Origin: Deltaproteobacteria bacterium
GTDB taxonomy: Bacteria > Desulfobacterota > Binatia > UTPRO1
Direction of reading: 5' to 3'
Assembly: GCA_020848745.1 (NCBI GenBank)
Contig: JADLHM010000072.1
Location: 1-36,850 of the forward strand
Length of the DNA: 36,850 nucleotides
Positions 246-20,433 of this stretch are shown in pieces. Under the pieces are notes generated by a model. The model saw nothing but the letters and a program-made list of their open reading frames with translations. It made no database searches and had not been told where the DNA came from. The stretch's first letter is position 1. Each line of letters begins with the position of its first letter. Position numbers and translations under genes: made by a program.

Positions 246-1040
246 TCAATGATGACCGTGCGCGCCGTGGTCGTGGCGGCCCGGCGCGGCGTCGGCGCCG
301 GACGGAAACGGCAGGGTCATGAGGATCCGCGCTCCCCCGAGGTCGACGTCGACCGTCACGTCGTCGTCGTCCGCACGCCGGCTCTCACCGGTGACGACGA
401 GGCCTCCCCGTTCGGGCGCCGGGGTCAGGCGACCCTCGCGCGCACGGCCGGCGCGATCACGGATCCGCGCGCTGCCGGACGCTGCGGCGACGTCGAGCGG
501 CTGCATGAAGGCGTCGAGCAGATACACGCGCACCTCGCCGCCGACGCGGCCCACGAGCTCGACGTGGCGGTCGCCGGACATGCCGATCACGCCGCCGTGC
601 GGCGCCAGATCGTGGTCGTGGGCGCGCCACACCTCCTCGACCGCGATCGAGCGCAATCCCGCCTCCTCGCCGACCCGACCCGCGACGCGCACGCGGGCGC
701 CGTGCTGCGCCAGCCACCGCGCGCGCTCGGCGGGCACTCCCCGACCGACCCGCAGCAGCCAGAGCTCGCCGGTCGCCTCGTCGCGGAGAAACCGCGTGGT
801 CCCGTCCCGCGCGACGCCGGCGAGCCGCGCGCAGAGGTCGTCCGAGCCCGCGTCGCTCCGCGGCGCGCACGGATCGGGCACGACGTCGCCGGCCGCCGTC
901 GCGCGGTCGGCCGCGTACCCGTACGCCCACGACGCCGCGACGAGCAGCGCGGCGCACGCGCTCCGTCGCAACGTACGCCCGGGTGATGGGCTCGTCATCG
1001 AGCGGCCGCCGCGGCCGCCGCGCTCTCGCATGTCGTTCAT
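246..1040 (-). CDS. Exported protein with His-rich tail, unknown function
   Basis: 264 residues. The start at 1040 is preceded by GGAG at suitable spacing; in-frame Met codons at 1031 and 998 are alternatives. Residues about 24-44 are a hydrophobic export signal ending near Ala-rich sequence. A Gly-Val-Ile-Gly-Met segment near residues 150-175, followed by a Tyr-Leu-Leu-Asp-Ala-Phe string, recalls small periplasmic domains I associate with heavy-metal efflux loci, but I cannot name a family securely. The C-terminus ends in a His-rich tail (HDHGAHGHH) that could bind metal. It lies 43 bases downstream of the beta-lactamase-kinase fusion gene on the same strand and is probably cotranscribed with it. 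Function unknown. Confidence 0.65.
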   Translation of the reverse strand: MNDMRERGGRGGRSMTSPSPGRTLRRSACAALLVAASWAYGYAADRATAAGDVVPDPCAPRSDAGSDDLCARLAGVARDGTTRFLRDEATGELWLLRVGRGVPAERARWLAQHGARVRVAGRVGEEAGLRSIAVEEVWRAHDHDLAPHGGVIGMSGDRHVELVGRVGGEVRVYLLDAFMQPLDVAAASGSARIRDRAGRAREGRLTPAPERGGLVVTGESRRADDDDVTVDVDLGGARILMTLPFPSGADAAPGRHDHGAHGHH

Positions 1041-1083: not shown

Positions 1084-3015
1084 TCAGCGGACGGCGATCT
1101 TTCCGGCGTCGACGTCCGCGAGGAGGTCCGCGATACGTTGCTTCAGCAGTCGGATCTCCTTCGTGGTGAGACCGAGCTGGATCCTGTCGGGGGCGATGCG
1201 GACGCCCTTCGCCGGATCGATGGGGGCGGTACCGCGGGCGAGCCGGAAGATGCCGCTCGCGTCCCTGTTCATGTCGAACAACGCCGCGAGCCGGTCCACC
1301 TCCTCCGTCGGCAGCGCGCGCAGGCGCGCGATCGGATCGGCGCGGAGCCAGGGCACGCGGATCTCGTTCCAGTTGGGAACGAAGAAGTTCCACGGGAACC
1401 CTTCGAACGAGATGCCGTTGTCGATGGCGAAAATGCGGGGGTCGTTCGGATCCGTGGAGATGAGGAAGTTGCCTTCCCGACCGTCACGATGGTCGATGAG
1501 GTACGTGACGAGGTTCAGGTCGGCGAGATGCCGGGCGAGATGCGGATTCTCCTCGACGCGCCGCGCGATGTCCTCGTCGAGATCGTCCACGACCTCCACG
1601 TCGTTCATCCAGACCGCGAACAGTCCGAGGACACACGACGTCCTCGGGACGCTCGGGGTCGCCTTCGCGTCGGCGACGCCGTACACGTCGAGCGGGATGC
1701 AGCGAGGCACCGGCGTCGGCACGACGTAGTCCTCCTCGTCGAAGAGCCAGCGCTGGATCACGTAGGCCGCCAGCTCCTTGCGGGGCGAGTTGTTCCAGCC
1801 GTCGAGCGTCTTGTCCGGGAAGCGCTTCCACTTCACCTTCAACGTCTGTCCGTCCGCGAACCGCACGATGAACCGGGCCGCACCGGTCACACCCGCGCCC
1901 GCGCTCTTCACCTCGGTGATCTCGAAGTCGTCGAAGGCGAGCTTCAAGTCGAGCACCGATGGCGCCATCGGCCAGTTCCGCGGCAACGGCTTTCCGACCT
2001 GCTCCGGAGGTCCGAAGAGATACTGCGCCGCGCGATGGGTGAGCTGCGCGATCAGCTCGCCGCGGTAGGCGGGTGTCGCCTCGGTGAAGACGGCGAGCGC
2101 GAACTGGTGCCCGTCGGGAGCGCGCACGATGCCGGCGTCGGCGTAGTCCGGACCCCAGGTGCCGCTCTTCGCGTACACCTCGAGGCCCGGGATGCGCGCC
2201 GCGCCGCCGGCGATGCGACGCGCCAGGTGCGGCTGCTGCTTCGGGTCGCGCTTCATCCGGCGGCGGACGGTGGCGGAGTCCCCGGGCGTGAGCGCGCGAT
2301 CGGTCGCGAGCAGCCCGAGCAGCTTCGCCGTGCCGATCGCGCTCATGGCCTGGCGGTTCGGGTACTCGCCGTCGTCGCTCACGAGGCCGCCGGTGAGGGT
2401 GCGATCGCGCAAGAACTGACGATCGCGGCCGGCGAGATCGCCGCCGCCGTCGTAGGTGGGATTCACGCAATGGAGGTCGTCGATGCCGAGATCCTGGAGC
2501 CAGCGTTTCACGACCTGCCGGCGCTCGCGGTACGCACGGTACTCGTGCGGCGGCAACTCCGGTCCGGGCGTGGTCTCCGTGAGTCGTGCGAACACCTTCT
2601 GCGTCGCCTGATTGCTGCTCTCGCGGATCATCGCCTCGAGCTGCTCGTCGAGCGCGGGGTCGATGGTGAGCCGCCCTTCTTCCCGCCAGCGGTAGGCCGC
2701 CATCAGGTACACGAACTTGACGACGCTCGCCGGGTAGATCGGTCGATCGCCTCCGACGTGCGCGAGACGGGGCGGCCCGTCCGTCGGAATATCGAGCAGC
2801 GCGACGCCGATCGTGGCGCGCCGCAGCGACGGATCGGATCCGGCGAGGGTCGCCATCGTGCGATCCAGGAACGTCTGCAGCTCGGGCGCGGGACGGGTCG
2901 TCGCGAGCCAGGCTCGCGCCGCCATCGCGGCGGGCGGCCCGGTCGCGGCCGCGGCGAGGCCGCTCATCGACCCGAGGAGCAGCGCGGCAAGTGCCGATCG
3001 CGTGATCGCACGCAT
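1084..3015 (-). CDS. Exported beta-lactamase-like hydrolase fused to a kinase-like domain
   Basis: 643 residues. I start at 3015 because the next residues form a signal peptide (MRAITRSALAALLLG, Ala-rich cleavage region); the frame is open to 3132, and 3030 is an alternative start. Residues about 40-330 carry the serine beta-lactamase/DD-peptidase motifs: SVVK at 97-100 (nucleophile Ser97, Lys100), SSN at 133-135 and KSG at 283-285. Residues about 355-640 look like a protein- or lipid-kinase fold: a possible ATP-binding lysine in LKVKWK (393/395), a candidate helix-C Glu414, HRD at 509-511 with Asn516 exactly five residues after the Asp, and DNG at 532-534 in place of DFG. Both domains retain their key residues. 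What is phosphorylated, if anything, is unknown. A divergent operon of envelope enzymes lies next door. The hydrolase assignment is firm; the kinase assignment is motif-based. Confidence 0.85.
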   Translation of the reverse strand: MRAITRSALAALLLGSMSGLAAAATGPPAAMAARAWLATTRPAPELQTFLDRTMATLAGSDPSLRRATIGVALLDIPTDGPPRLAHVGGDRPIYPASVVKFVYLMAAYRWREEGRLTIDPALDEQLEAMIRESSNQATQKVFARLTETTPGPELPPHEYRAYRERRQVVKRWLQDLGIDDLHCVNPTYDGGGDLAGRDRQFLRDRTLTGGLVSDDGEYPNRQAMSAIGTAKLLGLLATDRALTPGDSATVRRRMKRDPKQQPHLARRIAGGAARIPGLEVYAKSGTWGPDYADAGIVRAPDGHQFALAVFTEATPAYRGELIAQLTHRAAQYLFGPPEQVGKPLPRNWPMAPSVLDLKLAFDDFEITEVKSAGAGVTGAARFIVRFADGQTLKVKWKRFPDKTLDGWNNSPRKELAAYVIQRWLFDEEDYVVPTPVPRCIPLDVYGVADAKATPSVPRTSCVLGLFAVWMNDVEVVDDLDEDIARRVEENPHLARHLADLNLVTYLIDHRDGREGNFLISTDPNDPRIFAIDNGISFEGFPWNFFVPNWNEIRVPWLRADPIARLRALPTEEVDRLAALFDMNRDASGIFRLARGTAPIDPAKGVRIAPDRIQLGLTTKEIRLLKQRIADLLADVDAGKIAVR

Positions 3016-3134
3016 GTGCCCCGGCACCATAGCGGGAACCCGAGGCAGCGTCAGCGCCCGACGACACGCCCGACGAGGTTTCTCACCCGCGGGATTTCCG
3101 GTACAACCCGCGCCTTTCGACGGAGGGGGCACAG
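3016..3134. promoter_or_regulatory. Divergent intergenic region of the envelope locus
   Basis: This 119-bp spacer separates the two divergent transcription units and must hold both start regions. A GGAGGGGG string sits just before the ATG at 3135 and can serve as its ribosome binding site. A TACAAC hexamer in the middle could be a plus-strand -10, but no good -35 lies upstream of it. I see no clear operator palindrome. Confidence 0.3.
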
Positions 3135-6100
3135 ATGGAACGATGGCAACGTGGGCTCGCGGCGACGGTGCTGTTGTCGGCGGCGCTCGGCCTGACGGCT
3201 CCGGGGGAGACGTTCGAGGCGCCGACGCTCTCGCCGGCTCAAGAAAAGACCTTGAAGCAGAACTTCGCGCTCTGCCTGAGCAAGCTGAAGGGTCCCTACA
3301 CGGAGAATTTCTGCCTCTGCCGCGACGGCGAGAAGCGCGCCGTACAGGCGCCGAACGGCGCCGTCCGCATCCCGTGCCCGAACCCGATCTTCTGCGCCGC
3401 GTACCGCGCGCCCTGGGCTGAAGCGCTCGCCAAGGAGCGCATGTACATCGCGAACATCTTCTCGCGCGACGCGAACCTCTGGTCGACCTTCCCGAACCAC
3501 CACGACCTCGTGCGCGGCTACGTCCTCGAGAAGTATTTCATCGAGACGCACCCCAACCACAAGCTCGCGCAGATGAAGCAGTACCGCGGGCTCTCGAGCG
3601 CCGAGGAGGAGATTCCGGCGGCGCTGGCGTTCTTCGAGAAGTACCTCGGCTCCGACGAGTTCGACGGCAACCGTCACTACGTCCTCGCCTACGAGCTGCA
3701 ACGCCGCTACTTCGCGCGCGACGACGTCGGCCAGGTGCAGAAGGTGCGCAACCTGGCGGTGCGGATCGAGCAAGCGCGCGCCGATTTCAAGCCGCTGAAG
3801 GACGCCGTCCACAACCAGGTGTCGGCGGGGTTGATCCCGGGCCTCGCCGCGTACCGCGCGAAGCTTCCCGCGGGGGCCACGCGCGACCAGCTCGACGACC
3901 TCATCCGCGAGATCCAGAAGCTGACCGTTCTCGACGAAAGCGCCCTCGCGCCGCAGGTGCAGGGGATCGCCGACCAAAAGACGCGCGACGAGTTGGCGGC
4001 GCTCCTGCCGAACACCGCGGCGGCGCCGGTCGACGCGGTGGTCGCGCTCGGCAAGATGATGGCGGCGGCGCGGCGCGCCGTCGCCGCTCGCGCCGTGCCG
4101 CCCGCCGACATGCGCCGCCTCGTCGATCTCGCGATCACCGCCGCGCAGGTCCTCCAGCACCGCGGCAGCTCGCTCCTCGCCACCGCGGGCACGACCGCGC
4201 AGCAGCACGTGGCGATGCTCGGCGCGCTCACCGAGGCCGCCTACGGCACCGGGCTGCTGAACGCGCGCGAGCGCGACGCGGCGGGCGCCGCCGTCCGCGA
4301 CCTCGGGGCGCACGCCTCCCCGGACCGCACCGAGTTCGCACGCCGGCTCCGCGAGGCCAAGCGGGTCGTCGAGTGGGCCCAGGGCAACGCCGAGCTCGGC
4401 TTCGCCGAGGTGATGGCGCCCTGGACCTTCCTCCTCCCCGACACCGCCGGCATCCGCGACGACGTGCTGCGCGGCTCGCCGCTCATCCTCTACGCCGAGG
4501 TCGCGAGCCGGCTCGACGACTTCGTCGCCGGCGGCGACCGCCCGAAGCACCGCTTCTTCGGCGCCACGGTCGAGAGCGACGTGCGAGCGCTCAACCCGGG
4601 CCTCGCCTACGGACGGCTGCGGGTCGGCCCGAAGGACCACGGCTACACGCGCGACGAGATCGTCGCGCTCACGGAGACGCCCGCCGACCTCGACCCCGCG
4701 GCCGGCATCCTCACCCAGGGCGAAGGCAACGTGCTCTCGCACGTCCAGCTCCTCGCGCGCGCGCTCGGCATTCCGAACATCGTCCTCGGCCCCAAGGCCT
4801 TCGATCGCCTCCGCATGCACGACGGCAAAGCCGTGGTGCTGATCGCGACCCCGGGCGGCCGCGTCGTCATCGAGGAGGCGACGAGCCTGTCGCCCGAGAT
4901 CCGCGAGGCGTACGCCGAGTACACGCGCAACGAGACGCGCACGGCGGCGGGAACGCTCGGCGGCGGCGCCAAGCGCCTCCACATCGACCGCGCCAAGATC
5001 GACCTCGGACCGAAGCTGCCGATCGACCTGCGGAACGTACGGCGCAAGGACTCGGGTGTCTTCTGCGGCCCGAAGGCGGCGTTCCTCGGTGAGCTGAAAT
5101 CGCTCTTCCCGGACCACGTGGCGCGCGGGATCGTGGTGCCGTTCGGCGCGTACCACGCGCACTACTCGCGGGCGACGGTCGTCGTTCCCGACGCGCTGCG
5201 CGGTCGGAGCGTCGCGACGCCGGGCGAGCCGCTCCCGGCGTTCGTCGAGCGCACCTACCGGACGTTCTTTGACGAGCTCGCGCCGTCGGGAAAGAGCGAG
5301 CGCGAGCTCTCGGAGTGGATCGAGCCGCGCCTCGAGGTGATCCGCTCCACCATCCGCGCCACGCCGCTCGACCCGGCGCTCCGCCAGGCGATCCGCGACG
5401 GGCTCGCGAAGAACGGCCTGCTGCGCGGCGGCGACGACACGGTCGGCTGCTTCGTGCGGAGCGACACCAACGTCGAGGACCTCGACAACTTCAACGGCGC
5501 CGGGCTGAACCTCACGGTCTTCAACCGGCGCACGCTCGACGACATCTACGCCGGTCTCACCGAGGTGTGGGCGTCGCCGTTCCAGTTCCGCTCGTTCTCG
5601 TGGCGGCAGACCCTCATCGACGACCCGATCTGGGTGCTCTCGTCGGTCGTCATCCTCGAGTCGGTGCCGTCGGAGAAGTCGGGCGTGCTCGTCACCGCCG
5701 ACGTGAACGGCGGCGAGCCCGGGAAGATGCTGGTCGCGACGTCGGAAGGCGTCGGCGGCGCGGTCGACGGGACGTCGGCGGAGACGCTCCTCTGGTCGCC
5801 CCACGGCGTCGAGCTCCTCACCCTCTTCAAGTCGCCGTGGCGGAACGCGCTCGACGTCGACGGCGGCAGCAAGATCGTCCCCTCGACCGGACGCGACACC
5901 GTCCTCGAGCCGGCCGAGCTCGAGCAACTCGTCGCGGCCGGCAAGAAGATCACCGACGAGTTCACGCCGGTTCGGAACGCCGCCGGGAAGCCGAAGCCCT
6001 GGGACATAGAGTTCGGATTCACCAACGGCAAGCTCTGGCTCTTCCAGTGCCGTCCGTTCCTCGGCAACGACGAGCTCAAGAACATCCCGGCCCTGGCGGC

Positions 6101-6164
6101 GCTCGACAGCCCGCCGAGCGGCGCCCGCACGGCCAAGCTCTCGCTCGCGCAGGTCCTGAGATGA
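3135..6164 (+). CDS. Exported dikinase-like protein (His domain then C-terminal ATP-grasp)
   Basis: 1009 residues. Residues 1-22 are a signal peptide. Five cysteines between residues 47 and 87 (47, 60, 62, 81, 87) fit disulfides outside the cytoplasm. Residues about 90-500 are largely helical and unrecognised. A phosphohistidine domain of the PEP-utiliser family follows: GEGNVLSH with His536 in the catalytic position, then ARALGIPN. The C-terminal part is the pyruvate-phosphate-dikinase-type ATP-grasp domain, with VRSDTNVEDL around Arg775 and a closing DIEFGF...QCRPF block near 953-973. His domain before ATP-grasp is the order in alpha-glucan water dikinase, the reverse of PEP synthase. The RSD-x-N-x-EDL motif also resembles that family. 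No starch-binding module is evident. First gene of an operon with two L,D-transpeptidase-like genes; its stop overlaps the next start. The substrate is unknown. Confidence 0.85.
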   Translation: MERWQRGLAATVLLSAALGLTAPGETFEAPTLSPAQEKTLKQNFALCLSKLKGPYTENFCLCRDGEKRAVQAPNGAVRIPCPNPIFCAAYRAPWAEALAKERMYIANIFSRDANLWSTFPNHHDLVRGYVLEKYFIETHPNHKLAQMKQYRGLSSAEEEIPAALAFFEKYLGSDEFDGNRHYVLAYELQRRYFARDDVGQVQKVRNLAVRIEQARADFKPLKDAVHNQVSAGLIPGLAAYRAKLPAGATRDQLDDLIREIQKLTVLDESALAPQVQGIADQKTRDELAALLPNTAAAPVDAVVALGKMMAAARRAVAARAVPPADMRRLVDLAITAAQVLQHRGSSLLATAGTTAQQHVAMLGALTEAAYGTGLLNARERDAAGAAVRDLGAHASPDRTEFARRLREAKRVVEWAQGNAELGFAEVMAPWTFLLPDTAGIRDDVLRGSPLILYAEVASRLDDFVAGGDRPKHRFFGATVESDVRALNPGLAYGRLRVGPKDHGYTRDEIVALTETPADLDPAAGILTQGEGNVLSHVQLLARALGIPNIVLGPKAFDRLRMHDGKAVVLIATPGGRVVIEEATSLSPEIREAYAEYTRNETRTAAGTLGGGAKRLHIDRAKIDLGPKLPIDLRNVRRKDSGVFCGPKAAFLGELKSLFPDHVARGIVVPFGAYHAHYSRATVVVPDALRGRSVATPGEPLPAFVERTYRTFFDELAPSGKSERELSEWIEPRLEVIRSTIRATPLDPALRQAIRDGLAKNGLLRGGDDTVGCFVRSDTNVEDLDNFNGAGLNLTVFNRRTLDDIYAGLTEVWASPFQFRSFSWRQTLIDDPIWVLSSVVILESVPSEKSGVLVTADVNGGEPGKMLVATSEGVGGAVDGTSAETLLWSPHGVELLTLFKSPWRNALDVDGGSKIVPSTGRDTVLEPAELEQLVAAGKKITDEFTPVRNAAGKPKPWDIEFGFTNGKLWLFQCRPFLGNDELKNIPALAALDSPPSGARTAKLSLAQVLR

Positions 6165-7834
6165 GGGGGCGCGCGCGGCCGACCGCGGTGCGGATCGGCG
6201 TGTGGACGCGGAGCCTCGTCGCGATCGCAACCGTCGCGGCCGGGCTCGCGGCGCCGCTACGCGCGCACGCAGCACTCGCGGCGGGCGACACCACCTGGGA
6301 CGGCAGCGAGCCCCCGACCGGCATCTATTTCCATTGGTACGAGCCGTCGTTCTACGCCGGCTTCGCGCCCCGGACACAAGACCCGAGCCGGGTCCACATC
6401 GAGCTCGCACGCGGCAATCAGGTGCGGGTGACGGTCGTCCTCGGCGACGCCGAGCTCGCCGCCTACCTCGGCGACCTGCAGGAGCGCCGCGCGGTCGTCC
6501 AGGAGCTCGTGGACCGGAAGATCCTCACCCTCAGCACGAACCGCGAGTGGGAGCGCTTCACGAAGGCGCTCGACGACGCCGGCGTCGGGGCGGCGCTCGG
6601 CGCCCGCGCGAGCACGAGCCCCGAAGCGTGGCGCGCGAAGAGCCTCGCGGTGATGAAGACGTTGAATCCCGAGCGCGTGTTCTCGATCACGATGCCGCTC
6701 GCCGGGGTCGCGGCGCGCTGGCGGCCCGTGGTCGCCGCCATCGACGGCACGGACCCGGCGCAGCGCCTCGACGCCGCAAACGCCGTCCTCCCCGGCCGGA
6801 TCGTGCTCGAGCAGCTGCCGCCGCCGGTGGACAGCGCGCTCGGCCGCTGCATCGACCCGGCGCGCGGCGGCAAGGACCTCGTCCCCGCCTTCGAGCTCTG
6901 CGTGAAGAACTTCGTCGAGCTCGCGAGCGGATCCCATTACCGCGTGCCGAACGATGCCGTCGTCGCCGACGAGTTCACGGCGATCTATCCCGCCGGCACG
7001 GTCGAGGGAACGACGACCTACAAGGGCGAGAAGCTCCCCGACTTCGGCGTGACCGGCGTCTGGCCGCTCATCCGCCGCACGCACGGCCGCGGCATCCTCG
7101 GCATGGTCGACTACCTCTCGCCGAATCCGGGCTACGGCTACATCGTGATGCTGCCCTACCAATACGCGGGCGGAATCACCTACAACGCGTTCCACAACGC
7201 CGGCGTGCGCTGCCAGCTGAACAGCACGCCCTTCCTGCCGAGCGCCTGGCGCAAGGTCGCGGGCGAGCGCAGCGGCAAGCCGTACGAGAACCTGTGGATC
7301 GTCGGCCGCGGCCCGACGTCGCACGGCTGCACGCGCCTGCCGTCGGGGCACATGAGCGAGCTCCGCCAGATCGTCCCGTCGGAATCGGACACGCTCCTGC
7401 GGGTGCAGACCCACCGCAACCTGCCGGGCTGCTACGACGCGTTCGACATCGACGGCGACGGCGCGCCCGAAGTGATGGGCGTGCAGTACTACCTCGCGTA
7501 CCGCAGCAACGAGCACACGCCGGTGAAGGCGTGGGTGAGCAACCGGCGCGAGCCCTTCTACCGCTGGCTCTACGGCGACAACGTGGTGCTCGGCGCCGTC
7601 GGCGCGACGCGCCTGAAGGACGTACCGGTCTGCCGCTTCGTCGGCAGGAAGGCGTCGGAGCGCACGGTACTCCACGACCTGCCGCTCCACGAGGCTCCAT
7701 ACCAGCCGGAGCAGATCCAGTTCTTCCGCGCCAAGGTCGCGCCCGAGAGCACGCCGGGATTCGAGCTGAACCGCGAGTTGCGTAAGGTCGGCGCCGGGCA
7801 CACGCTCGACCGCTCGCGTCTGCTGCTCCAGTAA
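6161..7834 (+). CDS. L,D-transpeptidase-like exported protein, copy 1
   Basis: 557 residues. The ATG at 6161 overlaps the preceding TGA (ATGA), so translation is probably coupled to the dikinase gene. A signal peptide covers about residues 1-37 (cleavage near AHA-A). The catalytic signature SHGCTR occurs at 387-392 with Cys390 as nucleophile, as in YkuD-type L,D-transpeptidases, which cross-link or anchor to peptidoglycan. The likely partner His345 lies about 45 residues upstream, more than the usual 14-17, so the domain has an insertion or a divergent fold. After it comes FDIDGDGAPEVMG (428-440), which resembles a calcium-binding DxDGD loop. The protein is strongly similar to its downstream neighbour along the whole length (shared FAPRTQDP near 68-75, EAPYQPE near 511-517). 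The family call rests on the Cys motif; the substrate is unknown. Confidence 0.8.
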   Translation: MRGRARPTAVRIGVWTRSLVAIATVAAGLAAPLRAHAALAAGDTTWDGSEPPTGIYFHWYEPSFYAGFAPRTQDPSRVHIELARGNQVRVTVVLGDAELAAYLGDLQERRAVVQELVDRKILTLSTNREWERFTKALDDAGVGAALGARASTSPEAWRAKSLAVMKTLNPERVFSITMPLAGVAARWRPVVAAIDGTDPAQRLDAANAVLPGRIVLEQLPPPVDSALGRCIDPARGGKDLVPAFELCVKNFVELASGSHYRVPNDAVVADEFTAIYPAGTVEGTTTYKGEKLPDFGVTGVWPLIRRTHGRGILGMVDYLSPNPGYGYIVMLPYQYAGGITYNAFHNAGVRCQLNSTPFLPSAWRKVAGERSGKPYENLWIVGRGPTSHGCTRLPSGHMSELRQIVPSESDTLLRVQTHRNLPGCYDAFDIDGDGAPEVMGVQYYLAYRSNEHTPVKAWVSNRREPFYRWLYGDNVVLGAVGATRLKDVPVCRFVGRKASERTVLHDLPLHEAPYQPEQIQFFRAKVAPESTPGFELNRELRKVGAGHTLDRSRLLLQ

Positions 7835-7858: not shown

Positions 7859-9586
7859 ATGCGAACGACGACGAGCATCGTGACGGCGCTGGCCCTGCTT
7901 TCCGCGGCGGTCGGCGCGGCGCCGGCCGCCGCGAAGGACTTCGCGGCGCCCGCGCTCGTCGGCGACCGCGCCGAGCCCGGCCTGATGGTCCAGGAGCCGC
8001 CCCGCTACGGCGTCTTCTACGACGCGCCCGAGCCGTCCTTCTACACGGGATTCGCGCCGCGCACGCAGGACCCCGCGAGCCTCCACGTCCACCTCGGACG
8101 CGGCAACCAGCTGCGCGTGACGGAGGTGCTCTCCGAGGCGGTCGTCCGCGAGTACGCGCGCGACCTCGCCGAGCGTCGCCGCGCCTATCGCGCGCTCGTC
8201 GACGAGGGCCGGCTGCAGCTCACCCAGAACACCGCGTTCGAGGACTTCGAGCGCCGGCTCGACGCGGTCGGCCTCGAACGCATGACGCGCGAGGAAGCGA
8301 CGCTCGCGCCCGACGCGCTCCGCGCCCGCAATCTCGACCTCATCGAGACGCTCAATCCCGGGCGCGTCTTCCGGATCGCGATCCCCGTGCGGAAGCTCGT
8401 CGCCGACTGGGTGCGCGAGCTCGACCGCATCGCCGCCGGCGCACGCGCCCGTCTCGACGCGGGCCGGAAGCTCGATGTCCTGAACGCCCTCCTGCCGACC
8501 CGCCTCTGGCTCGCCGAGATGCCGGCGGACGCCGCCCCGGCGCTCGACGAGCTCGTGCGCCGCGCCCCCGCGAATGCCGACGACGCGGCCGGCATCGATG
8601 CCCTCGTGCCGGCATATACGGCGCTCCTGACGCGCGTCGGCGACGACCGCTACCCGGTGCGGGACGGCGTCGTGCGCTTCGCCGAGTTCACCGCGATCTA
8701 CCCGGTTGGCAGCGTCGCCGCGTACACGACGTGGCGCGGGCGGCCGATCCCGCAGTACCCGACGCCCGGACGCCGCGCCCTCACCAACCACCAGCGCTCG
8801 CTCGTCGCCGACCACATCCCGATCGACGACTCGTACAGCTGGTCGCCCTGGCTGCCGTACATGCACGTCACGCCGACCATGCACAACGCGATCCACACGC
8901 CGTGGTGGAAGATGGGCCCCGGCGACGCGAAGTTCCTACCGGCATCGTGGCAGAAGGTCACCGAGGGCAGCCGCGACGGGGCGCCTTTCAAGAAGCTCTG
9001 GCTGCTCTCGCGCGGCCCCATGTCGCACGGCTGCACCCACCTGAACACGGGCCACATCGCGGAGCTCCGCCAGATCCTCCCCGCCGACGGCGACCGCCTC
9101 TACGACGTCGACGTGTTCCTCACCCGCTCCGAGGACTACGACGTCTTCGACATCGACGGCGACCTCGTGCCCGAGGTGATGGGCGTCCGCTACTTCATCG
9201 CGTACTCGCTGACCTCCGGAAAGCCGGATCGCCTGCGGGTCAAGAACGAGCGCCGCGCCTTCTACGACTGGCTCTACGGCGGCGACCTCCAGTGGGAGGG
9301 CGACCGGGGCGTCTTCCGCGACGCGCGCGACGCGCGCTTCGTCGGGCGCGACGCGCGCGAAGGCCGGAGCTACGCGCGCGTCGCGCTGCGCGAGGCGCCC
9401 TATCAACCCGAGACCGTGCAGTTCTACCGCATGGTCGACATCCCGTTCGCGCGCGCGCTCCGCCAGGTGGGTCTGCACCAGCGCGCACCCGGAGCACTCG
9501 ACGGCCGGCAGGCGTCGAACGTGCGGGTGATGCGCGTCACCGCCGAGGACGGCGCCACGCCGCACCCGCGCCGGCGCGCCCGCTGA
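7859..9586 (+). CDS. L,D-transpeptidase-like exported protein, copy 2
   Basis: 575 residues, 24 bases after copy 1, with a strong ribosome binding site (AAGGAGG) five bases before the ATG. Residues 1-25 form a signal peptide ending AAA. It is a tandem paralogue of copy 1: the N-terminal PEPSFYTGFAPRTQDP block, the central NAIH segment, SHGCTH with Cys392, the FDIDGD loop and the EAPYQPE block are all shared. The residue after Cys-Thr is His instead of the Arg found in copy 1 and in most YkuD enzymes, so the two copies may differ in specificity. The last 30 residues are basic and probably disordered. It is presumably periplasmic, acting on peptidoglycan stem peptides. It is the last gene of the operon; a GC hairpin follows. 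Confidence 0.8.
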   Translation: MRTTTSIVTALALLSAAVGAAPAAAKDFAAPALVGDRAEPGLMVQEPPRYGVFYDAPEPSFYTGFAPRTQDPASLHVHLGRGNQLRVTEVLSEAVVREYARDLAERRRAYRALVDEGRLQLTQNTAFEDFERRLDAVGLERMTREEATLAPDALRARNLDLIETLNPGRVFRIAIPVRKLVADWVRELDRIAAGARARLDAGRKLDVLNALLPTRLWLAEMPADAAPALDELVRRAPANADDAAGIDALVPAYTALLTRVGDDRYPVRDGVVRFAEFTAIYPVGSVAAYTTWRGRPIPQYPTPGRRALTNHQRSLVADHIPIDDSYSWSPWLPYMHVTPTMHNAIHTPWWKMGPGDAKFLPASWQKVTEGSRDGAPFKKLWLLSRGPMSHGCTHLNTGHIAELRQILPADGDRLYDVDVFLTRSEDYDVFDIDGDLVPEVMGVRYFIAYSLTSGKPDRLRVKNERRAFYDWLYGGDLQWEGDRGVFRDARDARFVGRDAREGRSYARVALREAPYQPETVQFYRMVDIPFARALRQVGLHQRAPGALDGRQASNVRVMRVTAEDGATPHPRRRAR

Positions 9587-12209: not shown

Positions 12210-13754
12210 CTATTCGAGCGGATCCCAGGCGGTCGCGACGACGCGCGCCACGAACGTCGCTCCGCCGAGCCCGTCGGGCTTGAAGATCGCGGCCTCGGCC
12301 CAGGCGAGCTGGTCCAGCAGCGCGCACGTGAAGCCCGCGTGCCCGATGATCGCCGTGTTGGTCGCCGCGGCCGGTACGGACCCGATGAGCGCGTAGGAGG
12401 CCGCGCACCGCCCCGGCTCGTCGTGGACGAAGTACGTGACGTCGGGATCGAGCTCGATCGTCGGCCCGAAGTCCATGAGCTCGGCGGTCGTGACGTTGCG
12501 GCAGAACTCGCTGCTGATCACGCGCCCGACCGGGATGCCGAGCGCGTCGAAGGCCTGGCCGATGGTCGTCGCCTGCGTGACGCCCGTGGCGTTCAGCTGG
12601 CGCGCGGTCGCGGTGGCGCAGTTAGTATCGCAGCTCTTCCACCAGTTCGGCGACATCGTCGTCGCCGCGGTCCCGAGCGCGAGGTTGTCCTGGCAGACGT
12701 CGGCCGCGGCGTGCCGCCAATGGAGCACGTAACCGCCGGCGCGCAGCACCTGCGCGAGGGTCGGTACGAGCGTCGTCCGACTGCCCGTCGACTCGCACAC
12801 ACCGCCGGCGGTACAGCCGAACGCCGCGTAGTGATAGGTGCGGGGCGTGCCCGACGTCGTCGGCAGCAATTCCGAGAGCGGGTCGGACGCGCCCGACGCG
12901 GCGCCGAAGAACACGAGCGCCGCGGCGACATCGGTTGGATCGGCGGGCGCCTCGTTCAAACGGCGCAGCACGCGGACGTGGGTGTTCCCCGAGCCCGGAT
13001 CGGGCGACGTCCAGGTGAGCGCGGCGTGATCGGCGTCGACGGCCACGGCCAGATCCGCCGGTGCCCCGCCGACGCTCGGCGTCGCGGTCGCGCTCACCGT
13101 CGGCGTGGCGGTCGCCGTCGGCGTGGCGGTCGCCGTCGGCGACGGCGTCGGCGACGCGGCGCCGTCGATGATGCGCCCGGCCGCATTCGCCACGAACAGA
13201 TCGACGATCGCCGCGACCGCGGCCGCATCGCCGGCCGCCATGCACCCCGATCGCCTGTCCGCGCGGGCGAACGCCGCGAGGAAGCGCTCGGCGGCCTTCT
13301 CCAAGCACGCCGGCGCGGGTGGCTCCTCGCGTCGTACGCCGACCCGGCGACACGCCAGCGCGTTCGACGCCTTCTGACCCGCCACGCGGAGCTTGGCCGC
13401 CCCGCACCGCCCCGGCGATTGCGTGCCGAGAAGGGCCGTGAGCAGCTCGTCGATGGCGGCGTCGACCGCGCCCTCGTCTTCGACGAACGGGCAGCCGCCG
13501 CGCGCCTCGAGGCGTGCGAAGGCAGCGTCGAGGCGGCTGTCCGCCGATGCGTGGCACCCGGCGCGCACCGGCTTTCCCGTTTCGAGCGCTCGGGCCTGGC
13601 AGGAGACGTGCGCAGCGACGGCACGTGCCGTGGCGTCGAGCTTTCCCGCGACACATCTCTGCGCGGCGGTGGCCGCGGGGCTCGTACTCGCGGCGAAGGC
13701 TGCGACCACGAGCGCAACCACGGTCGACACGGCGACTCGAAGCGACGAGGCCAT
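12210..13754 (-). CDS. Exported multidomain protein: two 4-Cys repeats, FnIII-like, histidine-phosphatase-like
   Basis: 514 residues, start 13754 (TAGGAG upstream, then a signal peptide ending near residue 31). Residues 33-193 are two tandem repeats of about 83 residues, each with four cysteines at identical spacing 18/15/21 (Cys34, 52, 67, 88 and Cys117, 135, 150, 171). A Thr-Pro/Ala-Thr linker covers about 201-227, then an FnIII-like beta domain (about 231-330). The C-terminal part is a histidine-phosphatase-type domain: Arg347-His348 replacing the RHG motif as RHA, Arg419 in SSEFCR, and His472 in IGHAGF. These match the catalytic His, Arg and second His of the superfamily, so activity is possible. 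Probably surface or periplasmic. It lies 10 bases after the SDR gene on the same strand. Substrate unknown. Confidence 0.8.
   Translation of the reverse strand: MASSLRVAVSTVVALVVAAFAASTSPAATAAQRCVAGKLDATARAVAAHVSCQARALETGKPVRAGCHASADSRLDAAFARLEARGGCPFVEDEGAVDAAIDELLTALLGTQSPGRCGAAKLRVAGQKASNALACRRVGVRREEPPAPACLEKAAERFLAAFARADRRSGCMAAGDAAAVAAIVDLFVANAAGRIIDGAASPTPSPTATATPTATATPTVSATATPSVGGAPADLAVAVDADHAALTWTSPDPGSGNTHVRVLRRLNEAPADPTDVAAALVFFGAASGASDPLSELLPTTSGTPRTYHYAAFGCTAGGVCESTGSRTTLVPTLAQVLRAGGYVLHWRHAAADVCQDNLALGTAATTMSPNWWKSCDTNCATATARQLNATGVTQATTIGQAFDALGIPVGRVISSEFCRNVTTAELMDFGPTIELDPDVTYFVHDEPGRCAASYALIGSVPAAATNTAIIGHAGFTCALLDQLAWAEAAIFKPDGLGGATFVARVVATAWDPLE
13099..13134. repeat. 18-bp tandem repeat encoding Thr-Pro/Ala linker
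   Basis: Two perfect 18-bp units (GTCGGCGTGGCGGTCGCC), with a degenerate continuation to about 13155, lie inside the exported histidine-phosphatase-like gene and encode its ATATPT linker. Copy number could vary by slippage and change linker length without shifting frame, because the unit is a multiple of three. Confidence 0.6.
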
Positions 13755-13764
13755 GCGTGGACTC

Positions 13765-14544
13765 CTAGGCATTGCGCACCGTGACCCCGCCGTCGACGAC
13801 GAGGCAGGCGCCGGTGATGTACGACGCGGCCGGCAGCACGAGGGCGAGCGTCGCGTGCGCGACCTCCTCGGGATCACCGTAGCGGCCGAGGATGGTGCGA
13901 CGGCGCGCGAACTCCTTCTTCGCCTCCTCGGGGATCGCGTCGGTGATGCCAGTGCGGATCGGGCCGGGGCAGATGGCGTTCACCGTGATCCCCTCGCGGC
14001 CGAGCTCGACGGCGAGCGCGCGCGTGAAGCCGATCACCCCGTGCTTCGCCGCCGTGTAGGCGCTCGCGAAGCGGGTGGCGCCGAGACCTTCGGTCGACGA
14101 CACGTTGACGATGCGGGCGGCGTCCGAGCGCCGGAGGTGCGGCAACGCCGCGCGCACCGTGCGCGTGTGCGCCGTCAGCAGCACGTCGATCGACGCCGTC
14201 CAGATCTGCTCGTAGTCGGGCGCGTCGATCGCGGTGACGAGCGCGAGTCCGGCGTTGTTAACGAGGATGTCGAGGCGACCGAAGCGCGCCGCGGCCTCGT
14301 CGACGACCTGATGCACGCGGGCACCGTCGGTGACGTCCATCGCCCAGCCGTGGGCGCTGCCGCCGGCGCCGACGATCTCGCGCACCACGGCCGCGACCGC
14401 CTCCTCGGAGCGGTCGGTGACGGCGACGTGAGCGCCCTCGTCGGCGAAGAGGTGAGCCGTCGCGCGGCCCATACCGCTCGCGGCGCCCGTGACGAGCGCC
14501 GCGCGCCCGGCGATCGAGCGGCTGAGGGTGGTCAGACGGGGCAT
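13765..14544 (-). CDS. Short-chain dehydrogenase/reductase
   Basis: 259 residues, classical SDR length. TGAASGMG at 19-26 is the nucleotide-binding glycine motif, NNAG at 96-99 the structural motif, and Ser149/150, Tyr163 and Lys167 (YTAAK) the catalytic set. PGPIRTGI near 195-205 is also typical. It catalyses NAD(P)-dependent oxidation or reduction of an alcohol or ketone; resemblance is to the FabG/3-hydroxyacyl and sugar or steroid dehydrogenase group, but the substrate cannot be assigned. GAGAGGAG precedes the ATG. It lies 21 bases after the gamma-glutamylcyclotransferase gene and just before the exported phosphatase-like gene, so the three may form an operon. Confidence 0.9.
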   Translation of the reverse strand: MPRLTTLSRSIAGRAALVTGAASGMGRATAHLFADEGAHVAVTDRSEEAVAAVVREIVGAGGSAHGWAMDVTDGARVHQVVDEAAARFGRLDILVNNAGLALVTAIDAPDYEQIWTASIDVLLTAHTRTVRAALPHLRRSDAARIVNVSSTEGLGATRFASAYTAAKHGVIGFTRALAVELGREGITVNAICPGPIRTGITDAIPEEAKKEFARRRTILGRYGDPEEVAHATLALVLPAASYITGACLVVDGGVTVRNA

Positions 14545-18720: not shown

Positions 18721-18897
18721 ACGACGGCCGGGCCCGGCGCGCTGACGACGGGCCCGGCGCCGCGATGTGTCACCGTCGACACGCGCGGGGTCACATCTGG
18801 CGCGCGATGATGCCGTAGATTGCCAAGCGCGCGCGCCGAGACGCGATACGGCAAGCGCTGTGAACTGGTCCATGGCTTGCTCGGTACCGCGCTGGCC

Positions 18898-20433
18898 ATG
18901 CGCGCCTTCGCCGCCCTTCGCCGCTCCATCCTCCACCGCCTCGCGCCCCTCGACCTCCGGCGCGGCGAGGGCCGCACGGCGTCGCTCATGTTCGCCGCCG
19001 TGTTCTCCATCATGTGCGCCTACTACATGGTGAAGCCGCTGCGCGAAGGTTGGATCGCGGTGTCGGCGGTCGGCGGCCTCTCACGCGTCGAGATGAAGGC
19101 CTACTCGAGCCTCGCACAGAGCCTGCTCCTCCTCGGGATCGTCGGCGCGTACGCCCGGCTCGCGGCCCGCTGCACGGCGCGCACGCTGCTGCGCCGCTCG
19201 GCGTTCGCGTGCGCCGTGGCACTCGTCATGTTCTGGATCGCGCAGCCCGGCTTCCTCCTCACGACGGTTCCCGGTCTCGGCGTCGTCTTCTACCTCTGGG
19301 TCGGCATGTTCGGCGTGTTCGTGGTGGCGCAGTTCTGGACCTTCGCGACCGACCTCTACGGCGACGACCGCGGTCGCCGCCTACTGCCGCTGATCGCGAT
19401 CGGCGGGACCTCGGGCGCAGCCGCGGGCTCGTGGCTCTACGGCGCGCTCGCCGGACTCGGCCCGACCGGGGCGCACGCGATCCTGCTCTGCGCGCTCGTG
19501 CCCCTCCTCGCCGCGACCGCGCTCGCGCACGCGGCCGCGGGCTCGCTCGCCGACCTCGGCCGCGCGCCGCGCCGCGAGGGCGCCGCGAGCCTCCGCCGGG
19601 TCGTGAGCGACCGCTTCGTGCTCGCGGCCGGCATGCTCGCCCTCCTCCTCAGCTGGGCGACGACGAACGGCGAGAACCTGCTCTTCCAGGTCGTGCAGGA
19701 CGGCGTCGCCCACGCGACCACGGCCTCCGGCGTCGACGGCGCCGCCGCGCTCGAGCACGCGCGCGCCGCGACGACCGCCTTCTACGGCGACTTCTACCTC
19801 TGGACGAACGTCGCGGCCCTCGTCGTACAGCTCCTCGTGACGTCGCGCCTGCTCGCCCGCGGCGGTCTGGCGGCGATCATCTTCGTGCTGCCGCTCCTCG
19901 CCCTCCTGGCCTCGGCGGTCGCCGCGCTCGCGCCGGTGCTCGCGATCCTCAAGTGGGTGAAGATCGCCGAACAGGCCACCGACTACTCGCTGAACCATAC
20001 GGCGCGCCAAGTCCTCTGGCTCCCCGCGAGCGCCGAGACGAAGGTCGAGAGCAAGCCGACCGTCGACTCGTTGTTCGTACGCCTCGGCGACGGGCTCGCG
20101 GCCCTCACGGTGCTCGCGAGCGGCCACCTCGGCGGCCACACAACCGAGGCCCTGATCGTGGTGAACGTCGTGCTCGCGGCGCTCTGGCTGGTGGCCGCCG
20201 GCGTCGTCGTCCGCGAGCACGGCCGGCTCGTCGCGCTGCGCGCCGCGGAAGCCGCGGCCGCCGTGACGCCAGCGCTCCGGCGCGCCGCCCGCCGTCTCGT
20301 CCGTCGCGCGGCGCGCGCCCTCCGCACGATCCTGGCCGCGCCGACCGCGCTCTGGGACGGCGTCGCCGCGAAGCGGCTCGAGCTCTTGCCGATCGGCCGC
20401 GGCCACCCGCCGCCCGTCGCCCTCGCCGCGTAG
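18898..20433 (+). CDS. ATP/ADP translocase-like membrane protein (Npt/NTT type)
   Basis: 511 residues from the ATG at 18898; the frame is open from 18820 but that extension is not hydrophobic. Eleven to twelve membrane segments are visible. YYMVKPLREGW early on, and the block EQATDYSLNHTARQVLWLP followed by a Lys-rich TKVESKPTVDSLFVRLGDG loop, match the NTT branch known from plastids and intracellular bacteria and also present in free-living bacteria. Parasite members exchange ATP for ADP; the substrate in free-living bacteria is generally not known. The last 70 residues are basic and cytoplasmic-like. Monocistronic by appearance. The family call is good; nucleotide transport is not proven here. 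Confidence 0.8.
   Translation: MRAFAALRRSILHRLAPLDLRRGEGRTASLMFAAVFSIMCAYYMVKPLREGWIAVSAVGGLSRVEMKAYSSLAQSLLLLGIVGAYARLAARCTARTLLRRSAFACAVALVMFWIAQPGFLLTTVPGLGVVFYLWVGMFGVFVVAQFWTFATDLYGDDRGRRLLPLIAIGGTSGAAAGSWLYGALAGLGPTGAHAILLCALVPLLAATALAHAAAGSLADLGRAPRREGAASLRRVVSDRFVLAAGMLALLLSWATTNGENLLFQVVQDGVAHATTASGVDGAAALEHARAATTAFYGDFYLWTNVAALVVQLLVTSRLLARGGLAAIIFVLPLLALLASAVAALAPVLAILKWVKIAEQATDYSLNHTARQVLWLPASAETKVESKPTVDSLFVRLGDGLAALTVLASGHLGGHTTEALIVVNVVLAALWLVAAGVVVREHGRLVALRAAEAAAAVTPALRRAARRLVRRAARALRTILAAPTALWDGVAAKRLELLPIGRGHPPPVALAA

Follow-up and report, generated by a model that had tools for sequence, protein, structure and literature searches.

Where would an enzyme that works outside the cytoplasm find its ATP? 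The periplasm normally contains no ATP, and any periplasmic enzyme that needs it poses the question of a source. The question is raised here by contig JADLHM010000072.1 (assembly GCA_020848745.1) of a Deltaproteobacteria bacterium placed by GTDB in the Binatia. The whole stretch of DNA analyzed, 36,850 nucleotides, is referred to as the window. It encodes a dikinase, designated DIK, with a predicted signal peptide, and linked genes for NTT-type ATP/ADP translocases offer a testable answer. The explanation that we favor, tentatively and as something just short of probable, is an envelope dikinase that would use ATP exported by an NTT to phosphorylate some acceptor of the envelope. The sequences supply the basis for this predicted envelope dikinase in the export signal, the retention of every catalytic dikinase residue and the coupling of the genes.

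The DIK open reading frame (ORF) is regarded as coding because its third-position GC is 0.95, and the interval between the upstream stop and the ATG holds no other in-frame start. Pfam PPDK_N, the ATP-grasp family, matches residues 728-976 with 79.1 bits (cut-off 27), and PEP-utilizers, the phosphohistidine family, matches residues 518-557 with 20.5 bits, slightly below its cut-off of 23.1. Both families match in 11/11 members of family alignment A1 and in 30/30 members of alignment A6; thus the order of phosphohistidine domain followed by ATP-grasp domain is real and a conserved property of the family. The Pfam positions confirm an earlier note on this DNA, which had placed a phosphohistidine domain with His536 before a C-terminal ATP-grasp domain with Arg775, and a script check found all of its residue numbers correct. 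His536 (codon 4740-4742) sits in GNVLSHVQL and Arg775 (codon 5457-5459) in CFVRSDTN. H536 is invariant in 58 members, as are the ATP-grasp residues K647, R775, D957, E959, Q971 and R973. The spacing, D-x-E and Q-x-R separated by 11 residues, is that of PPDK.

The remainder of the protein was examined in an AlphaFold2 model built from 58 sequences (mean pLDDT 88.7). Residues 28-470 are predicted to be all-helical except for a small sheet bearing cysteines. Four polar residues of this region, E157, H226, R313 and R446, are invariant in the 58 members, and the region is a candidate acceptor-binding domain. The earlier note had suggested a structure prediction of residues 90-500 as a check for a carbohydrate-binding fold. 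No recognized carbohydrate-binding fold was seen for residues 28-470 in the model, a region not searched on its own.

Export was assessed with a simple 11-residue hydropathy score at a threshold of 2.0, with the start codon picked to favor a signal. DIK scored 2.28 at its fixed ATG, and 52/59 family members examined for their N-terminus scored at least 2.0, versus 0/7 ordinary PEP-synthase-like control loci subjected to the same procedure. The signal peptide claimed from the sequence alone is thus borne out. On the strength of this signal, and as one part of the explanation given above, DIK is predicted to be a periplasmic or outer-envelope dikinase. Five N-terminal cysteines, also claimed earlier, are present (Cys47, Cys60, Cys62, Cys81 and Cys87 by script check), and two of them, C62 and C81, are the only ones invariant in the 58 members. 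Their invariance would be as expected for a disulfide bond in an exported protein.

In the window genome and its relatives (n = 38), 13 genomes had a dikinase match at E <= 0.001. The best relatives were full length or nearly so with 57-89% identity, and a second subfamily, likewise full length or nearly so, had 33-35% identity. By this search and the 52/59 hydropathy result, the nearest relatives of DIK are other exported dikinases and not cytoplasmic PEP synthases, in support of the earlier note. A single scan with the family alignment, across 84,980 species genomes, returned 322 dikinase-related stretches. From the best 80 of the 322, 76 dikinase loci were obtained, in which close relatives are over-represented because selection was by match. 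Most of their record titles name Deltaproteobacteria, Myxococcota or Gammaproteobacteria; a few carry other labels. Cultured carriers include Parahaliea (L090, L103) and Mariprofundus ferrooxydans PV-1 (L099). At E <= 1e-60 the family was present in 26/274 sampled gammaproteobacterial genomes, and it was present in 3/297 genomes sampled from the phylum of the window. The plasmid and phage collections held no place covering 80% of the DIK query, just ordinary ATP-grasp relatives, and IMG/VR gave no dikinase match. The usual gammaproteobacterial dikinase-NTT cluster also appears at L075, on a contig from a metagenome bin under the title Klebsiella pneumoniae, which may have been misbinned or misnamed.

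Transporters encoded close to the dikinase were compared with known carriers. Alignment A5 comprises 23 transporters from the dikinase loci and the window, and the Pfam ATP/ADP transporter family TLC matches 20/23 of them; the window NTT itself scores 18.3 bits, below the cut-off of 21. Among 177,635 distinct PDB sequences only two matched A5 at E <= 0.01, and both are ADP,ATP carriers (9j3n at 6.6e-42 and the chloroplast carrier 9j3j at 1.4e-31). The alignment with 9j3n spans positions 12-427 of 437, nearly the whole length. The transporter genes therefore belong to the NTT (TLC) family. In intracellular parasites and in plastids, NTTs are known to steal energy by importing ATP, whereas export is proposed here. 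Some of the genes beside NTTs encode larger NTT-like proteins that include a cyclic-nucleotide-binding domain, one of them with a HEAT match slightly below cut-off; an NTT-HEAT-cNBD fusion architecture is described by Major et al. 2017 (PMC5381601). This 2017 survey reports NTTs in free-living bacteria, speculates on ATP transfer for cyanobacteria and assigns the free-living NTTs no role; in the sections consulted it names no exported ATP-using enzyme as an NTT partner (PMC5381601).

Coupling between dikinase and NTT was examined in the gammaproteobacterial sample. NTTs were found in 66 of the 274 genomes with A5 and in 48 with Pfam PF03219, which was run as an independent model because A5 had been built from NTTs near dikinases. 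With either model an NTT was present in 25/26 dikinase genomes, in contrast to 41/248 (A5) or 23/248 (PF03219) of the genomes lacking a dikinase. Fisher tests gave p-values of 1.3e-16 (A5) and 4.0e-21 (PF03219), which overstate independence as genomes share ancestry. In 19/26 dikinase genomes an NTT lies within 10 kb of the dikinase, where a rough estimate predicts about 0.01 per genome. In the sample from the phylum of the window (297 genomes), 3 have the dikinase, 31 an NTT and 3 both (p = 0.001). An NTT or NTT-HEAT gene was found in 37/76 loci, the NTT-HEAT share of this count coming from earlier whole-ORF family hidden Markov models (HMMs). Fifteen loci, part of the 43 with no NTT in view, were followed up in 14 genomes, and 11/14 have an NTT elsewhere. 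An unusual phosphate donor had been suggested for DIK in the earlier note. None is needed given this coupling, because of which exported ATP would be the simpler donor.

Could the link reflect nothing but shared ancestry or ecology? NTTs would then import scavenged nucleotides, and the dikinase would use some other donor or be inactive. NTTs do occur without a dikinase, in the 41/248 genomes counted with A5. The distance between dikinase and NTT varies, however, and both orientations were found, which argues against a single inherited block. The proximity in 19/26 genomes also speaks against this account. Exported CotH and phosphatase-kinase proteins likewise adjoin NTTs, as described below, and we consider shared ancestry or ecology an unlikely account.

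The neighbors of NTTs away from the dikinase were cataloged in 44 NTT stretches of dikinase-less gammaproteobacterial genomes (L118-L121 and L127-L166), a set that leaves out some short or weak A5 matches in G342, G368, G380, G438, G442 and G501, one A5 match in G480 and two in G521. Neighbors were CotH in 4, an aldo/keto reductase in 17, an exported short-chain dehydrogenase/NmrA protein in 2 and a Beta-lactamase2 (BLA)-type protein alone in 2; 19/44 had no recognized neighbor. An exported CotH kinase gene directly precedes the NTT at L119:6810-8612, L120:6992-8824, L121:6284-8257 and L158:3046-4824. CotH was present in 19/274 gammaproteobacterial genomes, and in 4 of them (G458, G516, G521 and G539) coordinate comparison placed it no more than 1 kb from an NTT. 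In several CotH-NTT pairs the start and stop codons overlap. Next to a further Mariprofundus NTT is a 1592-residue SH3-CotH protein (L124:8503-13281), and exported metallophosphatases with a PI3K/Fam20C/HipA-like kinase C-terminus lie beside NTTs at L115:3351-5393 and L122:11751-13667.

Aldo/keto reductase genes directly follow or overlap an NTT-like/MFS transporter gene in 17 loci, and most of the reductases have a twin-arginine-like signal. These loci are L128, L131-L133, L135-L142, L144, L145 and L149-L151. These transporters lie on the margin of the NTT family; when two were scanned singly, one matched MFS_1 only and the other MFS_1 with a weak TLC match. Short-chain dehydrogenase/NmrA proteins with apparent export signals stand beside an NTT-like gene at L153:3996-4991 and L147:3971-4993. 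The twin-arginine translocation (Tat)-type reductases beside NTT-like genes suggest periplasmic use of NAD(P)H. We infer a wider pattern in which an exported nucleotide-using enzyme lies beside a nucleotide transporter.

What is new about the dikinase is its company: exported beta-lactamase-fold serine enzymes, L,D-transpeptidase (LDT)-like proteins and NTT-type ATP/ADP translocases (Table 1). The ATG of LDT1 overlaps the DIK stop codon. In the LDT family the SHGCT motif and H345 are invariant in 17/17 members, and Pfam YkuD matches 4/17 weakly, below cut-off. LDT1 had no plasmid match. LDT1 and its paralog LDT2 are treated as putative divergent L,D-transpeptidase-like proteins, on the motif and weak fold scores. 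On the other side of DIK, the divergently transcribed gene product matches Beta-lactamase2 (PF13354) with 53 bits (cut-off 22), and alignments of relatives showed that the SxxK, SxN (SSN) and K(S/T)G motifs are kept in all Beta-lactamase2-type groups. Its kinase-like C-terminus gave a weak PI3_PI4_kinase match in 3/4 family members (best E 0.023), the window member being the one that lacks it, and no meaningful match among PDB sequences.

A BLA-type gene was found in 57/76 loci, counted with earlier whole-ORF family HMMs that mix BLA and kinase parts, and an LDT-like gene in 29/76, counted with profile A3 as NTTs were with A5. In the subset of 41 loci flanked by no less than 3 kb on each side, 35 have a BLA-type and 15 an LDT-like gene. 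The gene order at sister locus L024 is NTT, NTT-HEAT-type, beta-lactamase-kinase, dikinase, LDT, LDT. In the second dikinase subfamily a Beta-lactamase2-type gene follows the dikinase gene, and a third such gene is nearby.

Table 1. Features of the window discussed in the text (residue numbers refer to DIK)
Feature	Position	Strand	Details
Exported dikinase DIK	3135..6164	+	1009 aa, from ATG
Predicted signal peptide, ~residues 1-23	3135..3203	+	Hydropathy 2.28 at fixed ATG
Helical region, residues 28-470	3216..4544	+	AlphaFold2 secondary structure; invariant C62/C81
Phosphohistidine (swivel) domain, ~residues 480-590	4572..4904	+	Pfam PEP-utilizers
ATP-grasp domain, ~residues 625-983	5007..6083	+	PPDK_N; VIA-align to 5hv1
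NTT-type ATP/ADP translocase-like transporter	18820..20433	+	12.7 kb from DIK, same contig; A5 profile 476 bits
LDT1, putative exported divergent L,D-transpeptidase (YkuD)-like protein	6161..7834	+	Motif, fold scores
LDT2, putative exported paralog of LDT1	7859..9586	+	Alignment A3
Exported Beta-lactamase2 protein with C-terminal kinase-like domain	1084..3132	-	Divergent from DIK; likely start an internal ATG near 3015

Several further observations were made around these genes. The kinase-like domain at 1084-1977 (minus strand) is fused to the beta-lactamase fold in the genus of the window, and a kinase-like domain occurs alone beside an NTT (L106:11153-12253). Adjoining the beta-lactamase-kinase gene is a 264-residue protein (246-1040, minus strand) with an apparent export signal, a His-rich tail and no Pfam match. 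An apparently exported protein at 12210-13877 (minus strand) contains numerous cysteines, a linker rich in Pro and Thr, and a weakly matching histidine-phosphatase domain. A fusion of a sodium:dicarboxylate symporter with a periplasmic solute-binding domain lies near the dikinase in 12 loci including L053:805-3018 (Pfam, one scanned).

How might such a system work? In the mechanism that we propose, an NTT in the inner membrane would swap cytoplasmic ATP for ADP and so export ATP. The ATP-grasp domain would phosphorylate His536 with the beta-phosphate of ATP, releasing AMP and Pi. Carried by the swivel domain, the phosphate would then reach the helical domain of residues 28-470, which would transfer it to a cell-envelope acceptor. 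The acceptor would most likely be peptidoglycan or an attached glycan, because the partners, SxxK serine and HGC cysteine enzymes, are of kinds that cut or join peptidoglycan peptides. The earlier note had proposed a glycan substrate, perhaps in the cell wall. The envelope part of this proposal is plausible because the conserved neighbors, of serine acyl-enzyme type and L,D-transpeptidase-like, are exported; a glycan as the acceptor is what we infer.

Several results weigh against an envelope dikinase supplied by an NTT. An NTT was in view in just 33/76 loci (A5, E <= 1e-15), and in 24 of the 41 flanked by no less than 3 kb on each side. Three dikinase genomes, G324, G329 and G337, gave no PF03219 (TLC) match even at E <= 1; G324 is Desulfopila sp. 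IMCC35008, the record of which is titled complete, and G337 holds an NTT-HEAT-like ORF (phmmer). The best NTT of the window genome is, together with an NTT-HEAT-type gene, on a separate small contig, C6; no overlap of its ends with the window was seen, and a join is not claimed. The dikinase would also yield AMP, for which no return route was identified. The LDT assignment consists of a motif and weak fold scores: L,D-transpeptidases took the best three VIA-align rows for LDT1 (Z 6.5, 5.7 and 5.2; next row 3.7) in what was a re-ranking and not a search, and Foldseek gave no match at E <= 0.001. Finally, the substrates of some NTTs are NAD or other nucleotides (PMC5381601).

The fold of DIK was compared with solved structures. 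In VIA-align comparisons that barely tested parts of DIK beyond residues 541-980, residues 625-983 superimposed on rifampin phosphotransferase (RPH; 5hv1) at its ATP-grasp domain, with Z 34.4 and 2.1 A over 312 residues, and also on Neisseria PEP synthase (Z 32.4) and PPDK (Z 23.6). Foldseek was concordant for the ATP-grasp domain. R775 and E959 align by coordinates with Arg117 and Glu297 of RPH (chain 5fbs), where R117A is reported to abolish resistance and E297A to retain it (PMC4844700). The swivelling phosphohistidine domain mechanism described there would be as for DIK (PMC4844700).

With RPH the closest solved ATP-grasp domain, DIK could be a periplasmic drug-modifying kinase that phosphorylates an antibiotic or another small toxic compound on the way to its target. 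The neighbors would form a matching tolerance module, and they do include Beta-lactamase2 proteins with intact SxxK, SxN and KSG motifs as well as LDT-like proteins. RPH, however, has its ATP-grasp domain first, then a rifampin-binding domain, and the His domain last (PMC4844700), and the RPH NCBIfam model gave DIK only 41.8 of 999 bits. The cluster is moreover widespread in environmental bacteria, neither the plasmid nor the phage collection gave a match over 80% of the query, and the acceptor region appears conserved as in a housekeeping rather than a resistance enzyme. A drug kinase is rather improbable on this evidence.

Also improbable, in our view, is that DIK serves a periplasmic ligation or condensation by activating a carboxylate or hydroxyl, in the manner of the prodigiosin ligases PigC and RedH, with LDT- or beta-lactamase-like enzymes using the product. 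PigC and RedH have the same two domains and are among the weak NCBIfam ATP-grasp matches, and a protein of cysteine acyl-enzyme type is directly next in the operon while a serine one adjoins. Their matches are nonetheless far below the cut-offs (43 of 1300 bits) and cover the ATP-grasp half only.

PEP synthase and PPDK share two catalytic domains with DIK. They are not exported enzymes, and their order is ATP-grasp first, His in the middle and a C-terminal PEP/pyruvate barrel, the reverse of that in DIK. That DIK is such an enzyme of central metabolism with a mispredicted signal peptide, as its PPDK_N and PEP-utilizers matches and database names might imply, is given almost no credence, since the order is reversed, no pyruvate/PEP barrel is among its Pfam or NCBIfam matches, the PEP synthase equivalog scores 93.9 bits (NCBIfam cut-off 883), the signal peptide is conserved, and the same genome holds a second, better PPDK_N protein on contig C134 (1.8e-48). 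Identity as a PEP synthase was rejected on order, barrel and export signal. DIK is neither PEP synthase nor RPH.

Alpha-glucan water dikinase (GWD) and phosphoglucan, water dikinase (PWD) have a phosphohistidine domain followed by a C-terminal ATP-grasp domain, and the earlier note had pointed out the GWD order in DIK. The domain order held, as the Pfam positions and the AlphaFold2 model both place the phosphohistidine domain of DIK N-terminal to ATP-grasp. Membership of the GWD family was not supported. CBM45 and CBM20 were absent from DIK at E <= 1 and from the 12 Pfam families listed for 30 members. GWD1_pHisD reached 14.1 bits in DIK (cut-off 27; E 0.108), its sole match in the window genome, and weakly matched 5/30 family members at E <= 1 (best E 0.012). 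DIK was not filed as a GWD because the starch-binding module and the GWD1_pHisD cut-off both failed. In GWD and PWD the beta-phosphate of ATP passes to His and then to the acceptor while the gamma-phosphate goes to water (PMC7569903), and by analogy the same chemistry is expected for DIK. Modification of a polymer would also be common to GWD and DIK if our guess at the acceptor is right. DIK differs in being bacterial and exported and in its helical candidate acceptor region. Despite its GWD domain order, DIK is a dikinase of its own family, undescribed and exported.

If the export of ATP is confirmed, the envelope dikinase and its NTT would constitute a system new in kind. A search of open-access text on exported dikinases returned off-target results, and the proposal that free-living NTTs export ATP did not show up in print in text searches of the open-access literature, judged mostly from listings; subscription papers and preprints were outside the scope. 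A broader reading is possible, and we put it forward still more tentatively: the NTTs of free-living bacteria may be nucleotide exporters that energize the periplasm, each paired with an exported nucleotide-using enzyme, with the dikinase cluster phosphorylating the cell wall. The partners in this reading would be the dikinase, CotH kinases and phosphatase-kinase fusions; the Tat-exported aldo/keto reductases and exported short-chain dehydrogenases would be served by a more remote NTT-like branch, the cargo of which may be NAD(P)H. Export of ATP would give a testable role to free-living NTTs that the 2017 survey left unexplained (PMC5381601). If the proposal is true, the periplasm in these lineages has its own energy supply, comparable to that of the eukaryotic secretory pathway, and ATP-driven phosphorylation could belong to the chemistry of the cell wall.

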